From assembly GCA_902621205.1 (NCBI GenBank), contig CACNLH010000004.1, positions 1 through 64,000 of the forward strand: a stretch of DNA of 64,000 nt, read 5' to 3'. A program made the position numbers and the translations under genes. Positions 11,278 to 63,666 of this stretch are shown piece after piece. Under the pieces are notes generated by a model. The model was not told where the DNA came from. It did no database searches and saw only the letters and a program-made list of their open reading frames with translations. Every line of letters starts with the position of its first letter. The first letter of the stretch is position 1. Origin of the DNA: an uncultured Alphaproteobacteria bacterium. GTDB taxonomy: Bacteria; Pseudomonadota; Alphaproteobacteria; HIMB59.

Positions 11278-12327
11278 ATGGACATTAAAAAAGTCCTAAA
11301 TGAAGTTACTAAAGAGATAGAGCAAAGCTCTAGCCAACAAGAATTACAAAACGTTAAAGTAGCTTACTTAGGAAAAAAGGGGAAAATAACTGAGTTATTG
11401 AAAAGTCTTAAGGATCTTTCTTTAGAAGAAAAAAAATCTTCAGGTTCAAAATTAAATTTACTAAGAATTGAAGTTGATAATCTTATTAAAAATAAATTTA
11501 ATGATTTAAAAATTGAAGAAATAAACTCTAAATTAAAAAACGAATATTTAGATATAAGTTTCCCTCCACCAAATTCTATAGCCTCGAAGGCTCATCCAAT
11601 ATCAAAAACATTTGATGAGGTTATCACTATTTTTGGATCAATGGGTTACTCTGTTGCCGAAGGCCCTGATATTGAGACAGATTTTTTCAATTTTTCAGCG
11701 TTAAATATTCCTGAAAATCATCCTGCACGTGAAATGCAGGATACTTTTTATATAGATGACAAGGATAAAGAAGGTAAGCCCTACGTTTTACGAACACACA
11801 CTAGCCCAGTTCAAATTAGAACGTTATTAAATCAAAAACCCCCAGTCAAAATAATTGCTCCTGGAAGAACATATAGGTGTGACTCTGACTCAACACATTC
11901 TCCAATGTTTCATCAAGTTGAGGGTTTGTTTATTAATGAAAATGCAAATATGGGAGATTTGAAGGGCACTCTAATTGAATTCTGTAAACAATTTTTTAAT
12001 GTACAGAATTTAAAAGTAAGATTTCGACCTAGTTACTTTCCTTTTACTGAACCTTCTGCTGAAATGGATATTGCTTATGAAATAGTTAATAACAAGATCC
12101 AATTAGGTCAAGGTGATCGTTGGCTTGAGATTCTTGGATGTGGAATGGTGAACCCAATAGTTTTAGAGAACTGCAATGTGGATACGAATACCTATCAAGG
12201 TTTTGCATTTGGAGTGGGCTTAGACAGAATCACAATGTTAAAGTATGGGCTTACAGACATTAGATCATTTTTTAGTGGAAATTTAAATTGGATAGCTAGC
12301 AATGGCTTTACCATAGGAGAATTTTAG
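11278..12327 (+). CDS. pheS: Phenylalanine-tRNA ligase alpha subunit
   Basis: HPAREMQDTFY, RTHTSPVQIR, GLGCGMV-like ILGCGMVNP class II aaRS motifs. Confidence 0.96.
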   Translation: MDIKKVLNEVTKEIEQSSSQQELQNVKVAYLGKKGKITELLKSLKDLSLEEKKSSGSKLNLLRIEVDNLIKNKFNDLKIEEINSKLKNEYLDISFPPPNSIASKAHPISKTFDEVITIFGSMGYSVAEGPDIETDFFNFSALNIPENHPAREMQDTFYIDDKDKEGKPYVLRTHTSPVQIRTLLNQKPPVKIIAPGRTYRCDSDSTHSPMFHQVEGLFINENANMGDLKGTLIEFCKQFFNVQNLKVRFRPSYFPFTEPSAEMDIAYEIVNNKIQLGQGDRWLEILGCGMVNPIVLENCNVDTNTYQGFAFGVGLDRITMLKYGLTDIRSFFSGNLNWIASNGFTIGEF

Positions 12328-14720
12328 TGAAGTTTAGTTATAGTTGGTTGTGTGATCATTTAGAGACAGATAAAAATGCAAATGAAATTGGTGAAGCTCT
12401 TACAAATTTAGGTCTTGAACTTGAGAGCTTGACTGACTATTCAGAATACTCAAAGTTTGTAGTTGCAACCATAAATGATTTTAGAAAACATCCTAATGCA
12501 GATAGATTAAATATCTGTAAAGTTGACGATGGAACCAATACCTATCAGGTAATCTGTGGAGCAAATAATGTAAAGAAGGGATTAAAAGGAATATTTGCCA
12601 AAGATGGCATGTATATTCCAGGAACACAGATAAATTTAAAAAAAGGAAAAATTAGAGGTGAAATATCTGAGGGTATGCTTTTGTCTGAGAGGGAGCTTAA
12701 CTTAAGTGATGATCATGAGGGTATTATTGAGTTACTTGATGATTTTGAAAATGGCACTTCAGCAGTTGAAGCTTTGAAATTAAATGATCCTATTTTCGAG
12801 ATAGGTATTACACCTAATAGAGGAGATTGCCTTGGTGTTAGAGGCGTTGCTAGAGATCTCTCAGCTAAAGGTGTTGGTAAACTAAAGCCTTTAAATTTTA
12901 AAAAAATAAATCAGTTAGAATTCGCAAGCCCAATCATTTGGAATATTAACAATGATGATAATAGTTGTGAATATGTAGTAAGTAGATATTTTAAAAATGT
13001 AAATAATTCTAAATCTCCAGAATGGTTACAAAAAAAACTTATCAGCCTTGGACTAAGACCTATAAACGCTTTAGTAGATATAACAAATTATATCACTATT
13101 GATTTAGGCAGACCTTTACACGTTTTTGATGCAGATAAAATTGGAAAAAAACTAGATATGAGGCTTGCAAATGCGAACGAAAGAATTCTTGCTTTAGATA
13201 ACAAAGAATACACATTAGATAAAAATACAACCGTAATAGCTGATGGAAATAATGCACTTGCCATAGCAGGAATTATAGGAGGAGACCTCAGCGGATGCAC
13301 AGATGATACTAAAAATGTATTTCTTGAGGTTGCTCTTTTTAATCCAAATAGCGTAGCGCAAACTGGAAGATCTCTTGGAATAAATTCAGATGCTAGGTAT
13401 CGTTTTGAAAGAGGATTAGATAAAAATATGGTCATTGAAGGTTTAGAATATGCATCATATTTAATAAATAAAATATGTGGGGGCTTAGTAAGTAAAAATA
13501 TTGAAGCTGGAAAATTAGAAAATTTTGAGCATAAAATAAATTATAATTTTGATTACTTTAATAAGACTATTGGTTTAGAACTAGACCCACAAAAACAAAT
13601 CAAAATATTAAAAGATCTTAAATTTCAAATTAATAAAAGCAATGAAAAGGAATGTGAAGTCTTAGTTCCATCATGGAGGAATGATGTTAAAAACAAAATC
13701 GATATAGTTGAAGAAATTATAAGAATTTACGGATATGAAAATATTAAACAAAGTGTGCCATCTGCATCAATCGATGAGATTGATAAAATTGATAATTCAT
13801 CATCAAATAAGAAATTTAAATCAATAAAAAAACTTAAAAAAACCCTTATATCTAATGGAATTTCTGAAGTTATAACTTTTTCTTTTCACTCAATTAGAGC
13901 CCAAGAAATCCTTAAAGGAGATAAATCCTTAAAAATTTCAAATGCAATCAGTGATGATCAATCTTATATGAGAAATTCTATGATATTTAACCATTTAGAA
14001 AGTGCAGAATTAAATTTTAAAAAAGGTTTTAAAAATATTCAATTATTTGAAATAGGACCTATTTATAATTCATCTCAATCTCAAGAAAATATTCTATCAT
14101 TGCTTATTTCAACTGAAGAAAATACAAACTCTATTTACAAATCTGAAGAATTTAATTTTTACTCTTTAACAGAATTAACCTCAATATTAATAAGTTCATT
14201 AAATTTTGACATAAAACAATTTAACATATCAAGATCAACTTCAAATACTTATCACCCAGGTCAGTCTGCTGAACTATTTATGGGAAAAAAATTAATAGCT
14301 AGATATGGAAAAGTTCATCCACTAATTATGGAGGAATTTTCTAAACTTAAAAATTGTTATGCAATTGAATTATTTTTTGAAAACCTTCCAATTGATTCAA
14401 TTAGTAGAGCTAATAATATAAATATCTTAGATTCCCAATTTCAGTTCAGTGAAAAAGACTTTTCTTTTTTATTCGAAAAGGAGCAAAACCTCTATGAAGT
14501 TCAGAGATACGTAAAAGGTTTAGATAAAAACTTAATTAAAAATGTAGAATTTTTTGATTTATATGTAGCAAAAGACTTAGGTGATGACAGTAAAAGTGTA
14601 ACATTTAGGGTTACTATTCAATCTAAAGAAAAAACTCTTGAAGAAAAAGATTTAGAACAATTACATAAAAATATTTTAGAAAAAGTATCAAATAAATTTA
14701 AAGCAAAAATTAGAAGCTAA
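12327..14720 (+). CDS. pheT: Phenylalanine-tRNA ligase beta subunit
   Basis: [34 protein letters not shown]3/B4 and FDX-ACB regions; GTG start overlapping the pheS stop. Confidence 0.96.
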
Positions 14721-48394: not shown

Positions 48395-49798
48395 GTGTCA
48401 TCAACATTAGGTATAATAATAGGTAATAGAGATTTTTTTCCAGATCATCTTATTACTGAGGCTAGAAATGAAGTTTTAAATATTTTTAAGAATAAAGGTT
48501 TAAAACCTATTATTTTGAAAGACTCAGACACTAAGCTGGGTGGAGTGGAAACATTTCTTGAAGCTCAAAAGTGCGCTGATCTTTTTAAATCCCATAAAGA
48601 TGAAATAGAGGGCATATTAGTGGTCTTACCTAATTTTGGTGATGAAAAAGGAGTAGCTGACACAATTAGACTATCAGGTTTAGATGTGCCTGTTCTGGTT
48701 CAAGCAACTCCAGATGATTTAGATAAAATGCAACCCTCAAATAGAAGAGATGCTTATTGTGGTAAAATATCTGTTTGTAATAATCTTTATCAATATGGAA
48801 TAAAGTACTCGTTAACAAAAAGCCATGTTGTAAGTTTGTCCGGAAATGAATTTGATCATGAGCTAAATAAATTTATTTCAATTTGTAAAGTAGTGAAAGG
48901 TATGAGGAGAGTCAGAATAGGAGCTGTTGGAGCAAGACCACAAGCTTTTAATACAGTCAGGTTCAGTGAAAAAATTTTAGAACGCCATGGTATTAGTGTC
49001 ACTACTATCGATTTATCAGAAGTCCTTGGTAAAGCTAAAGAACTTAATGATGATAGCAAAAAAGTTAAAGACTCGATGAATAAAATTTCAGGTTATGGAG
49101 ATTCTACTGATACTCCATCTGAAAAATTATTACAGCTTGCGAGGCTCGATGTTGTTTTAAATGATTTTGTTGAAACAAACAAACTCGATGCTACTGCTAT
49201 TCAATGTTGGACAAGTGTTCAAGAAAATTATGGATGTAATGTTTGTACATCAATGAGTATGATGAGCGAAAATATGCTTCCAAGTGCTTGTGAAGTAGAT
49301 GTCACTGGAACTTTAACGATGTATGCTATGCAATTAGCCTCGAACAGTCCTAGTGCTTTAGTTGATTGGAATAATAATTATGACCAAGACGAGGAAAAGT
49401 GTGTTTTATTTCATTGTGGAAATTGGGCTAAAAGTTTCCTCCCTGATTTGAAAATAAGTACAGCACCTATATTGGGAAGTGTTTTTGGTGAGGAAAAGAC
49501 CCATGGTGCACTTGAAGGTAGAACACCAGCCAATCCTCTAACTTATGGAAGGATTTCCACTGATGATAATTTAGGTAAAATAAAATGCTACTTTGGAGAG
49601 GGAGAGCTAACTGATGATCCTTTAAACACTTTTGGTACAAGAGCAGTTGCGAAAGTACCTAAGCTTCAAAAATTAATGCAATATGTTTGTAGACACGGTT
49701 ATGAACACCATGTAGTGATGAATGCTTCAAATACAGGCGAAATATTAAATGAGGCTTGTGGGAATTATCTTAATTGGGAAACTTATATTCATAGTTAA
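48395..49798 (+). CDS. L-fucose/L-arabinose isomerase family protein
   Basis: 467 aa; fucose-isomerase-like C-terminus (CEVDVTGTLTMYAMQLAS, LFHCGNWAKSF); GTG start with GGAGG upstream. Confidence 0.8.
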   Translation: MSSTLGIIIGNRDFFPDHLITEARNEVLNIFKNKGLKPIILKDSDTKLGGVETFLEAQKCADLFKSHKDEIEGILVVLPNFGDEKGVADTIRLSGLDVPVLVQATPDDLDKMQPSNRRDAYCGKISVCNNLYQYGIKYSLTKSHVVSLSGNEFDHELNKFISICKVVKGMRRVRIGAVGARPQAFNTVRFSEKILERHGISVTTIDLSEVLGKAKELNDDSKKVKDSMNKISGYGDSTDTPSEKLLQLARLDVVLNDFVETNKLDATAIQCWTSVQENYGCNVCTSMSMMSENMLPSACEVDVTGTLTMYAMQLASNSPSALVDWNNNYDQDEEKCVLFHCGNWAKSFLPDLKISTAPILGSVFGEEKTHGALEGRTPANPLTYGRISTDDNLGKIKCYFGEGELTDDPLNTFGTRAVAKVPKLQKLMQYVCRHGYEHHVVMNASNTGEILNEACGNYLNWETYIHS

Positions 49799-49993: not shown

Positions 49994-50896
49994 ATGAGAA
50001 AAATAATTCTTACAATTCTTGTATCATTCTTATCTCTTTCTGCATTTGCTGAAAGATATGTAATGGTAACACACGGTGAGGGTAAAGACCCATTCTGGCC
50101 TGTTGTGCAAAAAGGTGGTGAAGATGCTGCTAGACACGTAGGTGCAGATTTTGAATATATCTTCAACCCTTCAGGTGACATGGGTGACATGGCAAAATCA
50201 ATTGCTGCTGCTGCAGCAACTCAGCCTGATGGAATGGTAGTTTCACTTCCAGATCCTGAAGCTTTAGGTCAAGCAATTAAAGACGCTGTTGCTGCTGGTA
50301 TTCCAGTCATCACAATGAACTCAGGTCTTGAGTCTTCTGCTTCACTTGGTGCATTAATGCACGTTGGTCAGCCTGAATACCTTGCTGGTCAATCTGCTGG
50401 TGCAAGAGCAAAAGCAGAAGGTGCTACAAAAGCTCTTTGCATGATTCAAGAAGCATACAACACAGCTTTGACAGATAGATGTGGTGGTTACGGTGAAGCT
50501 ATTCCTACTGAATTAGTAGATAGCTCAAACGATCCAGCTACTATCCCAACAAGAGCTGCTGCTGGTTTACAAGCAAACCCAGATGTTGATGCAGTATTAT
50601 CAGTTGGTCCGCACGTTTGTGTTGGAGTTCAACAGGCTATCGATGAGTTAGGTATGTCAGTACACCACTCTTGTTTTGACTTAAGCCCACCTGTTATGGA
50701 CTTAATCAATGAGGGTAAAGTTGCTTTCACAATTGACCAACAACAACGTCTACAAGGTTATATGCCTGTTGTAGTATTACACTTATACAACAACGGTGCT
50801 GGCCTTTTACCTGGTGCAAATATTCCATCAGGTCCAGGATTTGTTGACAAGTCAAATGCTTCATCAGTTGCTGCTTTAGCAGGTATTGATAGATAG
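49994..50896 (+). CDS. Sugar ABC transporter substrate-binding protein
   Basis: Signal peptide MRKIILTILVSFLSLSAFA; periplasmic-binding-protein fold; followed by permease and ATPase. Confidence 0.85.
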   Translation: MRKIILTILVSFLSLSAFAERYVMVTHGEGKDPFWPVVQKGGEDAARHVGADFEYIFNPSGDMGDMAKSIAAAAATQPDGMVVSLPDPEALGQAIKDAVAAGIPVITMNSGLESSASLGALMHVGQPEYLAGQSAGARAKAEGATKALCMIQEAYNTALTDRCGGYGEAIPTELVDSSNDPATIPTRAAAGLQANPDVDAVLSVGPHVCVGVQQAIDELGMSVHHSCFDLSPPVMDLINEGKVAFTIDQQQRLQGYMPVVVLHLYNNGAGLLPGANIPSGPGFVDKSNASSVAALAGIDR

Positions 50897-50916
50897 TATA
50901 ATCTTATAAACTTTGA

Positions 50917-50949
50917 AAAGTGGGTATTAAACTGCCCACTTTTTTTTTA
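50917..50949 (+). terminator. Hairpin plus T-tract between solute-binding protein and permease genes
   Basis: AAAGTGGG-TATTAAACTG-CCCACTTT followed by a run of T. Confidence 0.85.
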
Positions 50950-51003
50950 AATTTAAGTAAAATTAAACTGAATGACTTTTATTAAAATTATATAAAATAA
51001 AAT

Positions 51004-52593
51004 ATGGCAATAACCTCTACTCCCCAAAGACAAGAGTCTGATAGGCATCAAAAGAAAACTTGGCTTACCACACTGGTTTCAAGACCAGAAATTGGACCTA
51101 TCGGAGTTATGCTCCTTTTATTTGGAATGCTTGGTTATTTCTCCATCCCTACTGGTGAAATGTCTTGGAACCCTTTTACAGGCGAGGGTTTTAATGCATT
51201 AGGTATTAGAAACTTTCTAAGAGTTATATCTCAACTTGGTATCATAGCAATTGGTGCTGGTCTATTAATCATAGCAGGTGAGTTTGACTTATCTATTGGA
51301 TCCATGATTGGTTTCGCAGGAGCCTGTATGGCAATGATTCTTAGATGGGGTTTTTCATTTATTGTGCCCTACATATCTTTTGAGGGAGGTTTCCATATAG
51401 AATTTTATACGGTTTTCCACATTGCTGATGTTTCCCCAATACTAGCAATATTTATTACTTTATGTTTCACACTTTTTTTTGGATGGATACAAGGTACCAT
51501 TGTAGTTAGATCAGGCTTACCTTCTTTCATTGTTACCCTTGGTGGATTATTTTTTTTAAGAGGACTTACAGAAGTATCTCTACGCTCTTTCAATCATAGA
51601 CCAGATCAAGCTAAAGGCGCTACAACAGTTACAGAAATCCCAGATATTAAAAATATTGTAAATGTCCCCGGACATGGTGAAATGGTTCGTGAAAAAGCAA
51701 AAGCTCTTCCAGAAGCTGACCTTGTTTCTTTAGCTCAAACATTACCAGCTGATACAGTCGCAGCAATAACTGAAAGACTCGAATATACATATCAAAGGGT
51801 AGCAGATGCCAAAACTCAAATTTTGGTGGATAAAGGCACCAAACCTTTGCAAGAAGCTCTATTAAATGCTCAGGCTACCGGAAACGAATATATGGTTGGG
51901 ATGATACAAGAAAAAATTGCTAACTTTCAAATTGATCCCGTTGTTGCAAAAACTGTTACAGATGTTGATATAGCAAGGGTTTATATAGACTCATTATACT
52001 CAGCTCAACCTGTCGCTAACTTTTTTGGTGGAGATATTTTAGAGCCTGTATTTGATTGGTTATATTTTCCAATTGATTGGAATACCAATAATTTTGGAAA
52101 TCAATTTGCCCCTGGGTTATACTCGTGTGTAATGATTTGGCTTATTATAGCCATAATCTGTTATGTTGTTTTAAGTAGAACACAGGCCGGTAACTGGATT
52201 TATTCTACTGGTGGAAACTTAAGTGCCGCTAAAGCTAATGGTGTGCCCACAGATAAAGTTAAAGTATCTCTATTTATGTTTTCTGCTTTTTGTGCAACTG
52301 TATTTGCAACTTGCCAAGTTTTCGAGGTTAATACCGCAGATGCAGCTAAAGGAAATTTAAAAGAATTAGAGGCGATTGCTGCTGCTGTTATTGGTGGTGT
52401 CGTACTAACAGGTGGTTTTGGAACAATTTTAGGTATATGTGTTGGTGCATTTATTTTTGGAATAGCAAAAGAGGCTTTCTTCTATATACCTGGAATTGAT
52501 GGATCATTTTATAGAGTATTTTTAGGGTTAGTGATCATAGCCTCTGCACTAACTAATGAAAATATCCGAAAAAGAATCATAGGAAGCATATAA
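51004..52593 (+). CDS. Sugar ABC transporter permease with large hydrophilic insert
   Basis: AGEFDLSIGSMIGFAGA and VIGGVVLTGGFGTILGICVGA motifs; 529 aa. Confidence 0.88.
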   Translation: MAITSTPQRQESDRHQKKTWLTTLVSRPEIGPIGVMLLLFGMLGYFSIPTGEMSWNPFTGEGFNALGIRNFLRVISQLGIIAIGAGLLIIAGEFDLSIGSMIGFAGACMAMILRWGFSFIVPYISFEGGFHIEFYTVFHIADVSPILAIFITLCFTLFFGWIQGTIVVRSGLPSFIVTLGGLFFLRGLTEVSLRSFNHRPDQAKGATTVTEIPDIKNIVNVPGHGEMVREKAKALPEADLVSLAQTLPADTVAAITERLEYTYQRVADAKTQILVDKGTKPLQEALLNAQATGNEYMVGMIQEKIANFQIDPVVAKTVTDVDIARVYIDSLYSAQPVANFFGGDILEPVFDWLYFPIDWNTNNFGNQFAPGLYSCVMIWLIIAIICYVVLSRTQAGNWIYSTGGNLSAAKANGVPTDKVKVSLFMFSAFCATVFATCQVFEVNTADAAKGNLKELEAIAAAVIGGVVLTGGFGTILGICVGAFIFGIAKEAFFYIPGIDGSFYRVFLGLVIIASALTNENIRKRIIGSI

Positions 52594-53384
52594 TGAGTCA
52601 AGATAATCAAGCTCCATTTATTGAAATTACAAATTTAGTTAAAAAGTTTGGTACATTCACAGCACTGAACGGAGTCTCCTTAAATGTTTTACCTGGAGAG
52701 GTTCACGCACTACTTGGTGATAATGGTGCAGGAAAGTCAACTTTGATAAAAGTTTTATCTGGTGTTCACAAACCTACATCTGGTGTTATTAAAGTTGCTG
52801 GAAGTGAAGTGAAATTTGGATCTCCAAGAGAAGCTACGAGTGCAGGCATAGGAACTGTTTATCAAGATTTAGCACTGAACGCACTTACTTCGGTTACTAG
52901 AAACTTTTTTTTGGGCAATGAGTTAAAAAAAGGTCCAGGACCACTTGGAATTTTAGACTTTAAAAATATGAATGAAATTACTATTGCTGAGATGGGTAAG
53001 ATAGGAATAAATATCTCTGATCCGACTCAGTTAGTAGGTACGATGTCTGGAGGACAGAGACAAACTTTGGCGATTGCTAGAGCGATATACTTTGGAGCTA
53101 AAATATTAATCTTGGATGAACCTACATCTGCACTTGGGCAAAAACAACAAATGGAAGTTTTAAAAACTATTAAAAAAGTCCAACAATTAGGGAATATAGC
53201 TATTATTTTGATTACTCACAATGAAATCCACGCAAGACTTATTGCTGATCGATTTACATTCTTAAGCTTAGGTGAAGTAATAGGATCTGGAAAGTCATCA
53301 GAATTAGGTGGAGATGATGTTAAGCGTTTAATGGCTGGCGGTGCTCAAATAGGCGATCTAGCTAAAGAGCTTGAAGCTGTATAA
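52593..53384 (+). CDS. Sugar ABC transporter ATP-binding protein
   Basis: GDNGAGKSTLIKVLSG, MSGGQRQTLAIARA, LILDEPTSALG. Confidence 0.92.
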   Translation: MSQDNQAPFIEITNLVKKFGTFTALNGVSLNVLPGEVHALLGDNGAGKSTLIKVLSGVHKPTSGVIKVAGSEVKFGSPREATSAGIGTVYQDLALNALTSVTRNFFLGNELKKGPGPLGILDFKNMNEITIAEMGKIGINISDPTQLVGTMSGGQRQTLAIARAIYFGAKILILDEPTSALGQKQQMEVLKTIKKVQQLGNIAIILITHNEIHARLIADRFTFLSLGEVIGSGKSSELGGDDVKRLMAGGAQIGDLAKELEAV

Positions 53385-54289: not shown

Positions 54290-55294
54290 TTAATCAATAT
54301 TCTCCATCCTCCCACTTTTGACAGATTTATAAGCAGTTTCGGCTAAGAGAAGAGCTCTTCTTCCGTCCTCAAAGCCAACAGATACAGGCTTTTTTTCCAA
54401 AATTGTTTCAACAAATGAGCTAATAGAATTCATATAAGACTCCTGGTATCTCTCAATAAAAAAATTTAAATAGGGTTCACTTTTGTCAACAAACTCTGAA
54501 TTGTATTTTTTCAATTCATGTGGCTTTCTATTTTCAGATATAACCATCCCTTTGCTTCCAAACAACTCAACTCTTTGATCATATCCATAAGTTGCTGATC
54601 TAGAGTTGTTTATATGACATTGTTTTCCCGAGGCTGTTTCCATTATAATCATCAAGGTGTCACTATCATTTAATTCAGATTTAATTTTTGGATCTATTAA
54701 AGCATTAGAAATTGCAAATACCTTAACTGGCTCTTCACCAAGCATAAAACGGGCTAAATCAAAATCATGAATTGTCATATCTCTAAATTGCCCACCAGAC
54801 ACTTTTAAATAATCCCAACTTGGCAGACCTGGATCTCTAGATGTAATCAGACATTGATGAAGCTCACCAATTTCACCATTAATAAAAGATTTTTTTGCAG
54901 CCTGATGACCAGGATCAAATCTTCTATTAAAGCCTAATTGAATTGGAACTTTATTACCTTCAAGTCTTTTTGAAAACTCATCAACTTTATTTATATCGAG
55001 GTCAATAGGTTTCTCACACAAAACAGGTTTTTTTGATGCAACAGATCTCTCTATGAAATCAATATGTGTATTTGTAGGGGAAGAAATAAGAACAGCATCA
55101 ATATCATTATTGTTAAAAATATCATCAACATTTTCCACAGCAAATACGTTTAAATCATTTGATACTTTTTTTGCAAATTCTTCATTTGGGTCATAAATGC
55201 ATACTAAATTTGTCTGTTCATGAAGTTGAATATTCTTAGCATGCATTTGGCCAATTCGCCCGCACCCAATAACTGCAATACTAACTTTTTTCAT
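54290..55294 (-). CDS. iolG: Gfo/Idh/MocA oxidoreductase, inositol 2-dehydrogenase-like
   Basis: IAVIGCGRIGQMHAKNI, LCEKPIDL, GFNRRFDPGHQAAKK, GGQFRDMTIHDFDLARFMLGEEP. Confidence 0.8.
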   Translation of the reverse strand: MKKVSIAVIGCGRIGQMHAKNIQLHEQTNLVCIYDPNEEFAKKVSNDLNVFAVENVDDIFNNNDIDAVLISSPTNTHIDFIERSVASKKPVLCEKPIDLDINKVDEFSKRLEGNKVPIQLGFNRRFDPGHQAAKKSFINGEIGELHQCLITSRDPGLPSWDYLKVSGGQFRDMTIHDFDLARFMLGEEPVKVFAISNALIDPKIKSELNDSDTLMIIMETASGKQCHINNSRSATYGYDQRVELFGSKGMVISENRKPHELKKYNSEFVDKSEPYLNFFIERYQESYMNSISSFVETILEKKPVSVGFEDGRRALLLAETAYKSVKSGRMENID

Positions 55295-55336: not shown

Positions 55337-55353
55337 AAATTCATTTTGAATAA
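55337..55353. promoter_or_regulatory. Weaker copy of ATATTCA-N3-TGAATAT inverted repeat upstream of iolE-like gene
   Basis: AAATTCA-TTT-TGAATAA; 5-bp perfect inner arms ATTCA/TGAAT; 57 nt upstream of the ATG. Confidence 0.45.
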
Positions 55354-55410: not shown

Positions 55411-56322
55411 ATGAAAGCAAAATTGGGAATAGCACCTATAGCATGGTCCAATGATGATTTACCTGAACTTGGAGGAGAGACTTCTTTGGATACTTGCCTT
55501 AGTGAGTCAAAACTTGCTGGATTTACTGGTGTGGAAACAGGTGGAAAATTTCCAAAAACTCCTGAAAAACTTGGTCCAATTTTAAAAAATCACAAACTAT
55601 ACTTGGCATCAGGGTGGTATTCAGGAACTGTGCTAGATAATGACCTAGAAAATGAAAAAGATAAAGTCCTTCAACAACTCACTCTCTTCAGAGACCTAGG
55701 CGCAGCAGTTTTAGCATATGGAGAAACATCTGGAACTATCCAAAATATTAGACATGCTCCTTTAAACACAAAAAGAAAAATACATAGTGAGGATTTTAGA
55801 GAGTATGGAAGGAAACTAACATTATTTGCAGAATTTTGTGCAGATTTTGGTGTGCCAATTTCATTTCATCATCACATGGGTACAGCGATTGAGACTGAGG
55901 ATGAGCTTGATAAATTGATGAACCACACGGGTGAGGCAGTAAAAATCTTATTTGATACAGGCCATATGACCTTTGCAGGAGGCAACTCTTTGAGAGTAAT
56001 AAATAAATACGCAAAAAGAATAAATCACTTTCATGCTAAAGACATTCGCTCAAAGGTTGTAAATGATTTAGATCGATCAAAAAAAAGTTTTTTAGATTTT
56101 GTATTAGAGGGAGCCTTCACAGTGCCTGGAGATGGAAATATTAATTTTAAGGAAGTAGTTGAGACATTATCAAATAATAATTATGAAGGATGGTTCATTG
56201 TTGAGGCAGAGCAAGATCCCGCCAAAGCAAACCCATTTGAATATGCTAAGATTGGAAATAAAGAACTCGTAGAATGCTTAAGTATGTATGGATATGAAAT
56301 AGAGGATTATAGAGATGAATAG
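55411..56322 (+). CDS. iolE: Myo-inosose-2 dehydratase-like protein (AP endonuclease 2 / sugar isomerase fold)
   Basis: MKAKLGIAPIAWSNDDLPELGG, FHHHMGTAIETEDELD, FDTGHMTFAGGN, HFHAKDIR. Confidence 0.8.
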   Translation: MKAKLGIAPIAWSNDDLPELGGETSLDTCLSESKLAGFTGVETGGKFPKTPEKLGPILKNHKLYLASGWYSGTVLDNDLENEKDKVLQQLTLFRDLGAAVLAYGETSGTIQNIRHAPLNTKRKIHSEDFREYGRKLTLFAEFCADFGVPISFHHHMGTAIETEDELDKLMNHTGEAVKILFDTGHMTFAGGNSLRVINKYAKRINHFHAKDIRSKVVNDLDRSKKSFLDFVLEGAFTVPGDGNINFKEVVETLSNNNYEGWFIVEAEQDPAKANPFEYAKIGNKELVECLSMYGYEIEDYRDE

Positions 56323-57136
56323 TATTAAGGGAAAGTTTGCACTAGTGACTGGAGGAACGCAAGGTTTAGGAGCTGCAATTGCAAAACATTTTGCCGATAG
56401 CGGAGCTGCAGGTATTGTCACAATTGGTAGAAAAGAGGATAAAGGAAATGAGGTAGCAAAAAAAATTCAAGATGAAACTGGGTGTAAAGTAATTTTTGCA
56501 AAAACAGACCTTGGAGAGGTCCAAGAGTGTAGAAATGCAGTTTCAGTTGCCAAACAAGAATTTGGGAGATTGGATGTTCTTGTAAACGCTGCCGGTATTA
56601 CTGATAGGGGAGATATTGTTAATACGAGCGAAGAACTGTTCGATAAAATGATTGGCACCAACTTAAAAGGCCCTTATTTTCTTATACAAGATACAGTGAA
56701 AATTATGATTGAACAAAACATAGAGGGTTCAATTATTAATATTGGATCTGTGGCAGCTATGACTGGCCAACCATTCATATCAACTTATTGCGTATCAAAA
56801 GGGGCACTTGCAACATTAACAAGGAATACAGCATTCGCTTTGTTAAAAAATAAAATTAGAGTTAATCAGTTAAATATTGGTTGGATGGCTTCAGATGGAG
56901 AGCATGAGATACAAACAAAATATCATGGTGCCTCAGAAAATTGGTTAGAAGATGCTGGTAAAGCTCAACCATTTGGAAGGCTGCTTGATCCAAAAGAGGT
57001 AGCTAAAGCAGTTACATTTTTAGCATCTGATGATTCAGGTATGATGACAGGTTCTGTTGTAAACTTTGACCAGTCGGTGTGGGGAGGATACCCTTTTGCA
57101 CCTCCTCAGCCTGCAGAAAAAATGGAAATAAAATAG
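56315..57136 (+). CDS. SDR family oxidoreductase
   Basis: ALVTGGTQGLGAAIAKHFA, VNAAGITDRG, STYCVSKGAL (YxxxK). Confidence 0.9.
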   Translation: MNSIKGKFALVTGGTQGLGAAIAKHFADSGAAGIVTIGRKEDKGNEVAKKIQDETGCKVIFAKTDLGEVQECRNAVSVAKQEFGRLDVLVNAAGITDRGDIVNTSEELFDKMIGTNLKGPYFLIQDTVKIMIEQNIEGSIINIGSVAAMTGQPFISTYCVSKGALATLTRNTAFALLKNKIRVNQLNIGWMASDGEHEIQTKYHGASENWLEDAGKAQPFGRLLDPKEVAKAVTFLASDDSGMMTGSVVNFDQSVWGGYPFAPPQPAEKMEIK

Positions 57137-57137
57137 T

Positions 57138-58823
57138 CTAATTTAAATACTTTTGGGCACTTTGTTGACAACTCTTTAGTGTAGTTTCCAAATCCTTATT
57201 CAAAAAAATATACTCATAAATTTTATGACCAACTTCTTCAATAATATTTGAATAGGTTGGCAAAGGATATCTTGCCCATTCTATAATTTTTTCCTCCTTT
57301 TCCATTTTATCAATTTCATTAAATATTGGACTTAAAGCTCTCACTTCAGGATCATTTACGACACTAAAAACGGGAGATGATAAACTACCATGCTCAATAT
57401 AATATTTTATAAATTCAGGAGAGACAAAATTACGAATATTTTTCATAACAAAAGGTATTTTTTCAGGAGAGATATTTGAGGGTATGCCTAATGAAAACCC
57501 ACCTATTGGAGATACTTGAAAAGAGGAATTTCCAGCAGGTCTTGGTAAATAACCAGTTTTTTTATATGCAGGTGAAGCCTCATTTAGTTCGAACAAATGG
57601 GCTCTACTACTCCAATTCATTGCCATAGCTGATTTACCCTGACTATAATATTCAACACATTCATCATTGGAATGAGCAGATAATTCATTTGGCGAGTATA
57701 AAGTCAATTTTTTCAACATTTTAGCTGCTTCAAAAGATGCATCAGATAAAAAATTTGCTTTTAATAGTATTTTTTCCACATCTAAATCATAAATATTTTT
57801 CCCAATGTACCTAAGGTTTACATATGGTTTTCCATAATTTGCCATTGCTAAAATAAAACTAGTAGCAAGTGGTTGACCTTTTTTAGCTGGCCAAGAAATA
57901 GGACTTTCTATCTGTTTGTCCCCTTTTAATACCTCACAGGCATGGAGTAAATCCTGAAATGTTTTTGGTGGACTCAAAGCATATTTTTGAAAAATATCTG
58001 TTCTATAAAATAATAGATCAGGAATTGCTTCGATCGGAATCCCATAAAGTTTTTTATTAAAAGAACTTGATCTTACTCCTGAATAGTGAAAGTCATTCAA
58101 ATTTATTCCAACATCTTTAACAAAATTATTCAAAGGAAGAAGGCAATTTAATTTAGTTAACTGTCCAATCCATGGAATATTAAAAGCAACTATGTCAAAT
58201 TTAGACTTTTTATTTGATGAGGAATTTTTAATTATTACATTAAGTAGTTTTTTCAAATCACCTTCAATAATAAGTTCAATTTCACAATCAAGTATATATT
58301 CAAAAAAATCAATATTCTTATCTATCACTTTAAATGTGGGATTATCATTGGCAAGAAAGTTAATTTTTTTGTATTTTTTATTTTGATTAATTATAACATT
58401 TGGTGCAGGAATAATATTTCCTGCAGATAGAGAAGTTCCAAAAAAATAATTATCATTAAAATCACTGTAACCTAAGTTCAGGGCCACCTCTTTTTTGATT
58501 GAAAGTAAATAATCCGTGAATTCTTTAATGAGATTATTACTTGGATGTATAGAAAACGATTTACCTGATTTTGTTTTTGATCTTTGTATTAATTTTTTTT
58601 CTTGAATAAGTTTTTTTACTCTTCTCAAACCAGTTGCAAATGGCAAACCTGATGCCTGGATGATACTCGTAGTAGTGGTAATTTTATTGTCTAGATGGTT
58701 AATAATAACGTATGAAAAAATATTCCAATCAGCGTCAATTGTTTTAATTGAAATAGATCTGTTAAATAAAAGTCTTGTTTTATCAACGAATTTTAAAAGA
58801 GTGGTAATCTCGTTTCTATTCAT
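57138..58823 (-). CDS. Predicted transcription regulator: N-terminal winged-HTH fused to ABC solute-binding-protein (SBP_bac_1-like) domain
   Basis: No signal peptide; IIQASGLPFATGLRRVKKLIQEKKLIQRSKTKSGKSFSIHPS MarR-like wHTH; then KLYGIPIEAIPDLLFYRTDIFQKYALSPPKTFQDLLHACEVL and AMAMNWSSRAHLFEL...PIGGFSLGIPSN typical of SBP_bac_1. Confidence 0.8.
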   Translation of the reverse strand: MNRNEITTLLKFVDKTRLLFNRSISIKTIDADWNIFSYVIINHLDNKITTTTSIIQASGLPFATGLRRVKKLIQEKKLIQRSKTKSGKSFSIHPSNNLIKEFTDYLLSIKKEVALNLGYSDFNDNYFFGTSLSAGNIIPAPNVIINQNKKYKKINFLANDNPTFKVIDKNIDFFEYILDCEIELIIEGDLKKLLNVIIKNSSSNKKSKFDIVAFNIPWIGQLTKLNCLLPLNNFVKDVGINLNDFHYSGVRSSSFNKKLYGIPIEAIPDLLFYRTDIFQKYALSPPKTFQDLLHACEVLKGDKQIESPISWPAKKGQPLATSFILAMANYGKPYVNLRYIGKNIYDLDVEKILLKANFLSDASFEAAKMLKKLTLYSPNELSAHSNDECVEYYSQGKSAMAMNWSSRAHLFELNEASPAYKKTGYLPRPAGNSSFQVSPIGGFSLGIPSNISPEKIPFVMKNIRNFVSPEFIKYYIEHGSLSSPVFSVVNDPEVRALSPIFNEIDKMEKEEKIIEWARYPLPTYSNIIEEVGHKIYEYIFLNKDLETTLKSCQQSAQKYLN

Positions 58824-58853
58824 TTGTTGGTATTATATTATAAATTCATCAAA

Positions 58854-58870
58854 ATATTCAATTTGAATAT
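58854..58870. promoter_or_regulatory. Perfect inverted repeat in the divergent regulator/ABC-operon region (candidate operator)
   Basis: ATATTCA-ATT-TGAATAT; near-identical 24-nt block at 63649-63672. Confidence 0.65.
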
Positions 58871-58937
58871 ATTTGAGATTAAATCTCTTAATAAATCATG
58901 GATAATTTATATATATAAGGATATTAGGAGGATCAAT

Positions 58938-59981
58938 ATGAACAAACTAATAAAAGTATTAGCTGTTCTAATGTGCTTTTCTTTCGGTTCAGCTAAGGCA
59001 GTTGAAATCGTGTCTTTTAATGCTGCGTCATCTGAGGCTTATGTTGGTGCGTTCGTTAAAGGTATTAAAGCTACAGCAGAGCAATATGGCTATGATATTA
59101 CTGTTTTTGAAAACAACTATAACCAAGCAGAGCAAAACCAACAAGTAGAACAATACTTGTCAAGTGGTGCACTACCTGATGTATTTATTTGGTGGCCACC
59201 TGATGCTGTTGCAGGTTTAGGTTCGTTAAGAAAGCTTGCTAAAACTGGAGTACCAGTTTTAAAAATCAATCAGTTACCCAATGAGCAAGATAAAGCATTC
59301 ATCTTTGGATATGCCGGACCAGATGATAGTCTTCGCGCTTATAACGCAGGTGAGATGATGGTTAAAGCTATGAAGATGAAACAAGCTGCAGGTGGAGATG
59401 GATATAATGTAATTGCATTATCATATCCTCACTCTTACGGTGGATATGGCTTATCAATAAATGCTTTCAAACAAGCTATCGCTGGAACTGACTTAAATCT
59501 TATCGGTGACATCGGTGAGGGATTTGGACAGGCTAACGGTTATAAAGGAGCAGCTAAGCTAATAGCTAAAGTTAAAGATCAGGGAATTCATTTTGTATAT
59601 GGTATGGACGATGCGATCTTAACTGGTGGTATTAAGGCTTTAGAAGAAGCTGGTTATAATGTTGACTGGTATGCAGGTACTGGCAAAAGTGGCAGTGTAG
59701 ATAGTGATGCTGTCATTACAGTTGGTACTGTGTGTAACGGTGATAAGCAGATGATTACTGATGGAAAGCAATTTGGTACTACTCTACAGTCACCTCTTCA
59801 TGAAGGTCAATTAGCTATAGCTCTTGTTAAAGAGTACATGGAGAACGGTAAGCTAGCAAACTACATTAACTTTACACCTAACCCTTCAGTGACTGGTGCC
59901 ACTATGGACTTCACAGCACTTAGAGGTTTTGATGGTAAGTTATATGGCATTAACGAGCTTTGCTCAGGTGCTTGGGACTAA
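58938..59981 (+). CDS. Sugar ABC transporter substrate-binding protein
   Basis: ATG after AGGAGG; signal peptide MNKLIKVLAVLMCFSFGSAKA; Peripla_BP_4-like. ORF-track start 58824 gives an implausible 38 aa N-extension. Confidence 0.88.
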   Translation: MNKLIKVLAVLMCFSFGSAKAVEIVSFNAASSEAYVGAFVKGIKATAEQYGYDITVFENNYNQAEQNQQVEQYLSSGALPDVFIWWPPDAVAGLGSLRKLAKTGVPVLKINQLPNEQDKAFIFGYAGPDDSLRAYNAGEMMVKAMKMKQAAGGDGYNVIALSYPHSYGGYGLSINAFKQAIAGTDLNLIGDIGEGFGQANGYKGAAKLIAKVKDQGIHFVYGMDDAILTGGIKALEEAGYNVDWYAGTGKSGSVDSDAVITVGTVCNGDKQMITDGKQFGTTLQSPLHEGQLAIALVKEYMENGKLANYINFTPNPSVTGATMDFTALRGFDGKLYGINELCSGAWD

Positions 59982-60070: not shown

Positions 60071-61579
60071 ATGTCCACAAATCCAATTCTTAAAATTTCA
60101 AAAGTTTCTAGGACTTTTGGCGCTATACAGGCTCTAAAAGAAGCAAATTTTGAGATAAACGAAGGTGAAATTATGGGACTAGTTGGAGAAAATGGAGCTG
60201 GGAAATCAACTCTTGTTAAAATTATAAGTGGATTTGACCCTGGTTTTAAAGGCAGCTATCAAATCAATGGTAAAGAAGTAAAATTTGAAACGCCTTCACA
60301 AGCAGAGGAGTCTGGCATTGCTATTGCTCAACAAGAATTAAGCTTGATTCCTAATATGTCAGTTGCAGAAAATATTTTTCTTACTGGAGCTAAAGTAAAA
60401 AAATTTGCTACTCTTAATACATTGGCAAAGATGGCACGCCCATATCTTGATGAAGTTGGATTAACTGAAGTAGACCCAACTACTAGAATAAATTTATTAT
60501 CTGTTGGTGAACAACATTTGGTAGAAGTAGCTAGACTAATTTCTAGAGAAGCAAAAATTTTAATTTTAGATGAGCCTACAGCTGCGTTAGGTGAAGCAGA
60601 GAGTCGAAGAATTTTAGAAATGGTTGAGCGTCTTGCTGCAAATGGTAAATCAATAATTTATGTAAGTCATAGACTGGACGAAATTTTTAAGATTACAAAA
60701 AGAATAACAATATTAAGAGACGGAGTAAGTCAAGGTATTCAAGAAACTAAAGATATTGATGTAAATAAACTAGTTGAAATTATGCTTGGAAGAGAATTGG
60801 CAAATATGTTCCCATCAAAAGCTGACCATATAAGTGATGATCCAAAATTAGAGGTAAAAGAACTTTGGCCTGATGGCGTTCTAGAGCCGGTTAGTTTTTC
60901 AGCCTTCAAGGGAGAGATACTTGGGCTCTCTGGGCAACTTGGTAGTGGAGCAGGTGAAGTATTAGCCTCTATAGCAGGTGCACTTCAATCTAGATCAGGT
61001 TCACTCACTTTGAACGGTGAAACCTTTTTACCTAAATCACCAAGTCATGCTATAAAGAAAAAAATTGCATATTGCTCCTCCGATAGAAAAAAAGATGGTC
61101 TTTTTCTTGGACGTCCAATATTTGAGAATTTAACCTCCCCAGCACTTGGTGCGATATCAAAATATGGATTTAACTTTGGCAGTTCCGAGGATAATTATTC
61201 CAGAAATTTAGCAAAAGAGTTCTTAATTGATGTCAAAAGAATGCACGATGAGTCAGGTCTTTTAAGTGGCGGAAATCAACAAAAAGTAGCATTAGGAAAA
61301 TGGCTTTCAATCAAGCCCGATGTATTGCTTGTAAATGAGCCGACAAGAGGTGTTGATGTTGGTGCTAAATCAGAGATATATCAAAGAATGAGAGAATTAG
61401 CAGCAAGAGGAATTACAATTATTTTTGCCTCTACTGATATCCAAGAAATCACATATCTTCCTGACAGGGTGATTACATTTTATAGAGGAATGATGATTGA
61501 TGAACACCGATTAGAAAAAATTAAAACACCTGTTATTCTTAAAGAGATTACTGATCCATTTAACGAGACAAGCCTATGA
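60071..61579 (+). CDS. Sugar ABC transporter ATP-binding protein, two ABC domains (RbsA/MglA type)
   Basis: GENGAGKSTLVKII, second-half SGGNQQKVALGKWL, NEPTRGVDVGAKSEIY. Confidence 0.92.
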   Translation: MSTNPILKISKVSRTFGAIQALKEANFEINEGEIMGLVGENGAGKSTLVKIISGFDPGFKGSYQINGKEVKFETPSQAEESGIAIAQQELSLIPNMSVAENIFLTGAKVKKFATLNTLAKMARPYLDEVGLTEVDPTTRINLLSVGEQHLVEVARLISREAKILILDEPTAALGEAESRRILEMVERLAANGKSIIYVSHRLDEIFKITKRITILRDGVSQGIQETKDIDVNKLVEIMLGRELANMFPSKADHISDDPKLEVKELWPDGVLEPVSFSAFKGEILGLSGQLGSGAGEVLASIAGALQSRSGSLTLNGETFLPKSPSHAIKKKIAYCSSDRKKDGLFLGRPIFENLTSPALGAISKYGFNFGSSEDNYSRNLAKEFLIDVKRMHDESGLLSGGNQQKVALGKWLSIKPDVLLVNEPTRGVDVGAKSEIYQRMRELAARGITIIFASTDIQEITYLPDRVITFYRGMMIDEHRLEKIKTPVILKEITDPFNETSL

Positions 61580-62616
61580 GTGCTATTATCGAAAATAATC
61601 AATTACCTTTTTCTGCAAAGTTTTTGCAATTCTATAAGGATCGCACACTTCTTGCTATTTTATTGTCACTTTTTGCTGTGATGTTTATATATGGAATTTT
61701 TTTCACAGAAAATTATTTAACAATAACCAATTTTAAAGCAATTATTAGAGATGCAGCACTATATGGCATTATGGCTATAGGACTTACATTTGTAACTTTA
61801 TCAGGAAATTTTTTTTTATTGTCATTAAAAGAAACAGCATCTATTTGTGGTGTTACGTTTGCTATGGGTATGGCTACTGGTTTTGGATCACCGGATCTTG
61901 CAGGAAACTTTTTAGTTTCACTATTAGCTGCTTTAGCAGTAGGTGTCGTAAGTGGAGTAATACAAGGATATTTTGTTGGAATGGGAGGCAACCCAATTGT
62001 TGTAACATTAGGTGGAGCAGGCATCCTATATGGTATTGGTGCATGGTGGAGTGATAACCTTGTAATAAACTTTACAAGACCTCATGATGCTGAATGGTTA
62101 GGAACTGGTTCTTTTTTGGGTCTTCCAAGTATCACATGGTCTTTTATTTTAATTGCCATTGCAGCTGAGATAGTTTTAAGACATACAAATTTTGGAAGGA
62201 AAGTTTATTTAGTTGGAGCAAACAAAGCTGCTGGAAAAGCCACTGGCCATGAAAATTTTTCTATGGCGATAATTGTTTTCACAATCTGTTCTGTTTGTTG
62301 TGCATTTGTTGCAGTAGCTTTTGTTGCTCAAATGGATAGTGCTCAATCTAATTATTTTTCTGCAGAATTTGGATCATCAGGTGATATGACTATACTCGTT
62401 ATAGCAACTGTCATGGTTGGTGGAAATTCAATAATGGGTGGTTATGGATCTACTTTAAGGACTAGTTTGGGAGCAATTTTTATTGCTATGGTTGATAATA
62501 TGATGGTTTTACAAGGATTTAATAGCGGACCTAGAATAGTTGGTGTGGGCTTAATGATCGTGTTTAGTATCATTGTTTTTGGTTTATTTGCTAAAGGAAG
62601 TAGGGCTCAGGAATAA
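61576..62616 (+). CDS. Sugar ABC transporter permease
   Basis: BPD_transp_2-like multi-TM; VTLGGAGILYG, VGGNSIMGGYGSTLRTSLGAIF. Confidence 0.87.
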   Translation: MSAIIENNQLPFSAKFLQFYKDRTLLAILLSLFAVMFIYGIFFTENYLTITNFKAIIRDAALYGIMAIGLTFVTLSGNFFLLSLKETASICGVTFAMGMATGFGSPDLAGNFLVSLLAALAVGVVSGVIQGYFVGMGGNPIVVTLGGAGILYGIGAWWSDNLVINFTRPHDAEWLGTGSFLGLPSITWSFILIAIAAEIVLRHTNFGRKVYLVGANKAAGKATGHENFSMAIIVFTICSVCCAFVAVAFVAQMDSAQSNYFSAEFGSSGDMTILVIATVMVGGNSIMGGYGSTLRTSLGAIFIAMVDNMMVLQGFNSGPRIVGVGLMIVFSIIVFGLFAKGSRAQE

Positions 62617-63650
62617 TGGAAAATTTTATAAAAAAGATTACAAAAGATGTAGATCTCTCTTTTGCAATCTTATTATCATTTTGTGTTTACGTATTCTTTG
62701 CAATTAATATTGAAGTTTTCTTTAGCCACAATATTAGTTTCGCTATTCTTGAAAGGTTTGCAGTCTTGGGTCTTGTAGGTTTAGCATTAACAATTTGTAT
62801 AATAGCTGGAGAAATTGATTTATCAATTGGGTCTAACGCAGCCTTATGCGCTGTGATAGTTGTAAAATTAACAGACCCCTTGGGCGCACCATTAGCGATG
62901 CTTATAGGACTTTCAGTTTCAACTTTAATCGGCGTAACACAAGGTTTTGTTATAGCATTCATAAGAATAAGAGCGATTGTGATTACAGTTGGTACTCTAA
63001 TGCTGCTTAGAGGAGTAGCTTTGCTAATTGCTGAAGAAAAAACAGTTATGTTAACGGATTTTAGAGTTCCTGATTTTATTACTACTAAAGTTTTAATGTA
63101 TTTTTCTCCTGCTAGTCTAACGGTTATCTTCATATTCATTTGCGTAGGAATTTTTATGCGTTACACAAAATATGGAAGGGAAATATATGCGATTGGTGGA
63201 GCAAGAAAAGAAGCACTCACTGCAGGTATACCTTTAAGACGCCCAATGATTATAGCCTTTGCGCTGTCAGGTTTTTGTGCCGGTTTTGCTGGAACTGTAA
63301 TTGGTTTGAAATCAGGAACGGCTCAAGGTTTAGGACTACAATACCTTCTTTTAGCAGGAACTGTTGCAGCTTTTGTTGGAGGTGTGAGCATACTAGGAGG
63401 AAAGGGTGGTGTTTTAGGAGCAGCTATCGGAGCTTTAACAGTTAATTTTTTGAATACTGGTCTCGTATTTTATGCACTTCAGGTTCATTTTGTTCAATTA
63501 TTCACATCAGTGCTTTTGGTTATCGTTATAGTTTTTCAAACTATGTCTAGGGTATTTGACTCGCGGCAAGCTAGGAAAGGTCTGCTTGCCACAATTGATG
63601 AACGAAAAACATCTTTGCTGGAAAAAAAGAGATCGGCTTTAGGTAGATAA
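62616..63650 (+). CDS. Sugar ABC transporter permease
   Basis: AGEIDLSIGSNAALCAV, VGGVSILGGKGGVLGAAIGAL. Confidence 0.9.
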   Translation: MENFIKKITKDVDLSFAILLSFCVYVFFAINIEVFFSHNISFAILERFAVLGLVGLALTICIIAGEIDLSIGSNAALCAVIVVKLTDPLGAPLAMLIGLSVSTLIGVTQGFVIAFIRIRAIVITVGTLMLLRGVALLIAEEKTVMLTDFRVPDFITTKVLMYFSPASLTVIFIFICVGIFMRYTKYGREIYAIGGARKEALTAGIPLRRPMIIAFALSGFCAGFAGTVIGLKSGTAQGLGLQYLLLAGTVAAFVGGVSILGGKGGVLGAAIGALTVNFLNTGLVFYALQVHFVQLFTSVLLVIVIVFQTMSRVFDSRQARKGLLATIDERKTSLLEKKRSALGR

Positions 63651-63666
63651 TATTCATTTTGAATAT
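63650..63666. promoter_or_regulatory. Second perfect copy of the inverted repeat, upstream of SDR gene (candidate operator)
   Basis: ATATTCA-TTT-TGAATAT, 54 nt upstream of the SDR ATG. Confidence 0.65.

Follow-up and report, generated by a model that had tools for sequence, protein, structure and literature searches.

Among the transcriptional regulators in which a solute-binding protein has become an intracellular sensor, the closest described systems are SgrR of E. coli and DsvR/Vca0578 of Vibrio cholerae (PMC13060122), in which an N-terminal HTH is fused to a cytosolic solute-binding-protein (SBP) domain, and which are autoregulated and control sugar genes. In these regulators the DNA-binding domain is SgrR_N and the sensor belongs to the SBP_bac_5 family. 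The LysR and LacI families are also generally regarded as one-component regulators with a periplasmic-binding-protein-fold sensor, and LysR genes are often divergent from their targets and act as activator plus autorepressor, but both DNA-binding domain and sensor family differ from those considered here. Here, we describe a gene annotated as a secreted sugar-binding protein whose product is a predicted fusion of a winged helix with an SBP_bac_1 domain and which belongs to a widespread and apparently undescribed family of probable intracellular regulators. The gene lies in the 64,000-nucleotide stretch of DNA analysed here (the window; contig CACNLH010000004.1 of assembly GCA_902621205.1, positions 1 to 64,000), derived from an uncultured alphaproteobacterium.

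The ORF at 57138-58823, on the minus strand, starts with ATG and encodes 561 aa. Pfam identifies SBP_bac_1 (E = 4.3e-19) at residues 201-450, only SBP_bac_1 and SBP_bac_8 reaching the cut-off, and finds nothing in the N-terminus of this protein. However, the sequence before residue ~150 is a real domain. In fact, a profile built from 22 family members matches winged-helix proteins in the PDB (TubR, 1.8e-4; MarR/SlyA-type, 2e-3), while 12 of the 22 members match MarR_2 (best 3.4e-5) and 7 of 22 match HTH_IclR (best 1.3e-8). Modelling with AlphaFold from the single sequence was of no use (pLDDT 33), but an AlphaFold2 model from nine close sequences predicts a textbook winged helix, with helices at residues 29-44, 51-58 and 62-74, a wing formed by strands 78-82 and 90-94, and a helix at 96-116; the block-mean pLDDT is 83-91 for residues 31-80, 66 for 81-90 (the wing loop), and 89 and 77 for 91-110. 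The peptide ASGLPFATGLRRVKKLIQEKKLIQR, on which the preliminary description had based its proposal of a MarR-type winged helix, falls on the helix-turn-helix (helices 51-58 and 62-74), although the resemblance to MarR is only at the level of the fold, and MarR proteins lack such a sensor domain. The predicted winged-helix domain covers residues 1-116 (58476-58823, minus strand), and is followed by a linker at residues 117-151 (58371-58475), the least conserved part, and by the SBP_bac_1 (CUT1-type) domain at residues 152-561 (57141-58370). Residues ~155-562 of the family profile show clear homology to solved CUT1 sugar-binding proteins (PDB 5iai, 1.5e-59; 1eu8, 1.7e-44; another example of this group is SmoF, 7nbz). 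The SBP half of the model is of low confidence, and a structure search with this shallow model gave SBP matches with poor whole-chain TM-scores.

In comparison with SgrR and DsvR, the protein has neither an SBP_bac_5 domain nor, in the window member, a match to SgrR_N (PF12793), which is found in only 1 of the 22 members at E = 0.014, and taxa and gene neighbourhood are also different. No HTH_1, LysR_substrate or LacI domain is found. It is important to distinguish this protein from an ordinary transport SBP with an N-terminal extension, or from a cytosolic SBP that regulates a transporter by contact rather than by transcription, a possibility suggested by the database name of its relatives, 'extracellular solute-binding protein', and by the good conservation of the SBP domain. 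However, the protein has no signal peptide, the maximum 15-residue Kyte-Doolittle mean being 0.77 against 2.0-2.5 for the SBPs of the same genome, the N-terminus is confidently modelled as a winged helix, and the neighbouring transporter usually has its own SBP of another fold, so that this alternative appears very improbable.

The fusion is conserved over its full length in orthologues of the same genus at 62-100% identity, and synonymous divergence is near saturation while pN is only 0.13-0.17 in both domains, indicating that the whole protein is under purifying selection. Outside the genus, full-length relatives at 21-34% identity occur in Skermanella, Marinovum, Tritonibacter, Phaeobacter, Loktanella, Shinella, Sinorhizobium, Agrobacterium, Rhizobium, Aminobacter and Paraburkholderia, where most of the annotated ones are called 'extracellular solute-binding protein'. 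The fusion is not unique; it belongs to a coherent, misannotated family in AEGEAN-169/HIMB59-type bacteria, Rhodobacteraceae, Rhizobiaceae, Azospirillaceae and Burkholderiales. The assignment of the host to AEGEAN-169/HIMB59 is itself inferred, from small AT-rich genomes, the published sugar repertoire of that group (PMC10308909) and the presumed size of the HIMB59 genome, the close hits being single-cell genomes titled uncultured Alphaproteobacteria. Profile searches of 386 genomes of the class and 399 of the phylum separate full-length members (574 bits or more) from ordinary SBPs (207 bits or less) with nothing in between. In a tree of SBP domains the fusions lie on one side of a branch with 100/100 support, consistent with a single fusion event; one row of this tree (genome G676) was read in a wrong frame and sits on a false long branch, and four SBP rows are short fragments, but neither breaks the split between fusions and SBPs. 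Some genomes have two or three copies. In particular, at locus L014 a second fusion paralogue (L014:410-2110), 41% identical to the first and about 6 kb from it, is followed by a Gfo/Idh (iolG-like) gene and preceded by ATATTCATTTTGAATAT at 293, and in genome G728 two fusion genes (L111:4449-6284 and 12159-13916) flank one ABC/Gfo-Idh operon, with a third copy elsewhere.

In the window, the gene is divergent from a CUT2-type operon that begins with a Peripla_BP_4 sugar-binding protein gene with signal peptide (58938-59981, plus strand; 7.9e-25), whose true start is at 58938 and not at the TTG at 58824, and continues with an ABC ATPase and two BPD_transp_2 permeases (three genes, 60071-63650, plus strand). 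The preliminary description had correctly suggested that the binding protein of this operon belongs to a different fold family. On the other side, the gene is convergent with an SDR oxidoreductase gene (56315-57136, plus strand), which follows iolE, a myo-inosose-2 dehydratase above the TIGR04379 cut-off (55411-56322, plus strand), and beyond this lies an iolG-like inositol 2-dehydrogenase above the TIGR04380 cut-off (54290-55294, minus strand). A second CUT2-type ABC operon is found at 49994-53384, with an SBP related to the rhizopine SBP family (1.8e-70, below the cut-off), and next to the cluster, at 48395-49798, there is a fucose-isomerase-C family protein with distant similarity to sulfoquinovose isomerase (2.9e-26, far below the cut-off). 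Further along the contig follow a sorbitol/acetoin-dehydrogenase-like SDR, an M24 hydrolase, PDH-type E1 alpha and a likely beta subunit, SSADH, Gfo/Idh, an iolC-like kinase, an iolB-like isomerase and a class II aldolase, forming an inositol-type catabolic cluster. The unit of SDR, M24 hydrolase (distantly DddP/ectoine-hydrolase-like), PDH-type E1 subunits and SSADH (L123:3720-9500) is conserved and shared with roseobacters, although its substrate is not obvious. Many distant members of the family are divergent from the same PBP4-SDR-permease-permease-ATPase unit and are followed by SDR-M24-E1a-E1b-E2-SSADH genes, whereas others sit beside Gfo/Idh, sugar isomerase and ABC genes.

The 114-bp divergent gap (58824-58937), exactly the region that the preliminary description had proposed for a binding assay, carries a perfect 17-bp dyad, ATATTCAATTTGAATAT (58854-58870), which is a candidate operator. 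In the orthologous gaps compared side by side the dyad is unchanged except for the central base, which is A or T, although the flanks diverge; the congener G026 has one further change in the centre (ATATTCAGTTTGAATAT). A second dyad in the gap, GAGATTAAATCTC, is conserved only in near-identical species and was not considered further. A second copy of the candidate operator, ATATTCATTTTGAATAT, lies at 63650-63666 before the SDR/M24 hydrolase/E1/SSADH operon, and a weaker one, AAATTCATTTTGAATAA, at 55337-55353 between iolG and iolE, with counterparts at equivalent places in most relatives. A third site in the genome with one mismatch (C1:149473) lies inside an ORF and is taken as chance. In 41 congeneric genomes the exact pattern ATATTCANNNTGAATAT occurs zero to two times per genome, the two being about 4.8 kb apart where both occur, as in this cluster, while the reversed control never occurs. 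The pattern is present in all 18 genomes with the complete regulator and in 1 of 17 without it (G010, 55% complete), genomes G011 and G035, which have regulator fragments only, being left out (Fisher 4e-9). However, the whole cluster probably comes and goes together, and these are not independent events.

The same core, TATYCANNNTGRATA, precedes many orthologues at about 30% protein identity, often as two sites exactly 21 bp apart. With the motif fixed from the genus alone, the per-locus shuffle P values are modest (0-0.2), but the summed best match over 11 upstream regions is 106 against 85.5 +/- 2.3 in shuffles (maximum 95 of 300). With the degenerate consensus TATYCANNNTGRATA, which was widened after the distant sites had been seen, nine pairs of sites (up to three mismatches) are exactly 21 bp apart, while no other spacing occurs more than twice. 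The 11 regions are those of the subfamily in which sites were seen, whereas 11 regions of more divergent members show none; in particular, no shared dyad was found in the Shinella/Agrobacterium, Sinorhizobium/Loktanella/Aminobacter/G777, G176b/G728b, G401 and Paraburkholderia subfamilies. A scan of 386 alphaproteobacterial genomes for the tandem gave three hits, two of them at the promoter of this regulator, but the reversed control gave four, so that the scan is weak by count and its value lies in where the hits fall; a tandem-site hit in genome G152, between two unidentified ORFs, is taken as chance. In seven regulator-bearing genomes, six of seven hits with up to one mismatch are at the regulator promoter, with none in the control.

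Since the dyad was found by conservation and not by binding, and many regulator families bind such dyads, it could in principle be the site of another regulator. This seems very unlikely, because the site tracks the fusion gene across families with partly different surroundings, including a genome outside the class, and no RpiR/IolR-type regulator is found in the genome, which is 86% complete. Furthermore, two congeners (G023 and G031) encode the winged-helix domain alone, in proteins of 144 and 146 aa that are 47-49% identical (L118:6813-7247 and L119:8400-8840), each near a PotD-like ABC operon whose upstream gap has an operator-like dyad, TGTCCAAAATGAACA or AGTTCAAAATGAACT (L118:8480-8494 and L119:10080-10094), with TATAAT at offset 31. 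This suggests that the winged helix recognises such dyads by itself, although these are only two related cases, noticed after the fact.

The promoter geometry gives some indication of the direction of regulation. In the host genome a -10-like hexamer starts 30 bp after the site at the promoter of the divergent ABC operon (GATAAT, 58901-58906, plus strand), 30 bp after the site at 63650 (TATAAT) and 32 bp after the site at 55337, towards iolE (TATAAT). The site thus sits just upstream of where the -35 would be and no good -35 is seen, which is the geometry of an activator. On the other strand, the dyad at 58854-58870 contains the -35 of the candidate promoter of the regulator itself (TTGAAT-18-TATAAT, 58832-58861, minus strand), which suggests autorepression, but this is a weak point, as it rests on a consensus match only and the promoter scan finds no more than expected by chance. 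A pure repressor of the catabolic cluster, released by the ligand, is the main alternative, and MarR- and LacI-type sugar regulators do seem to be mostly repressors; the overlap of the site with its own candidate promoter would agree with this, and the tandem sites of roseobacters, 21 bp apart, fit either model. However, at the three promoters of the cluster the site would not overlap the -10 or the start site, and we consider a repressor unlikely.

The best explanation, which we hold with good confidence although it rests on computation alone, is that the protein is a one-component cytoplasmic transcription regulator, as the preliminary description had proposed for the neighbouring sugar/inositol genes, naming SgrR as the nearest known analogue by architecture. 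In this model, the CUT1-type domain senses an inositol- or sugar-like ligand or pathway intermediate, and the N-terminal winged helix binds, presumably as a dimer, the dyad TATTCANNNTGAATA, which at 58854-58870 covers the candidate -35 of the regulator's own promoter and lies about 40 bp upstream of the -10 of the divergent ABC operon. As sites with the same spacing stand before the downstream catabolic operon and between iolG and iolE, the ligand-bound regulator most likely activates the whole cluster, and we favour such ligand-dependent activation with autorepression, as known for SgrR and many LysR regulators; DNA binding, dimerisation, ligand and direction of regulation are all inferred. 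More generally, it is probable, but less certain, that these proteins form an undescribed family of one-component activators, spread over Alpha- and some other Proteobacteria, in which a CUT1 sugar-binding protein was internalised and fused to a winged helix, probably once, which controls ABC/inositol-type operons through a conserved TATYCANNNTGRATA operator, often a 21-bp tandem, and whose winged helix can also act without its sensor before another ABC operon. No paper on the family was found in the open literature, in which most subscription journals are not covered.

These findings show another route from a transporter binding protein to an intracellular sensor, beside LacI, LysR and SgrR, and correct a systematic misannotation of regulators called 'extracellular solute-binding protein'. 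Because ligand-bound SBP structures are plentiful, such fusions could also serve as biosensor scaffolds. For AEGEAN-169/HIMB59-type ocean bacteria with small genomes, and for cultivable roseobacters, they provide an immediately testable operator and regulon for inositol/sugar catabolism.
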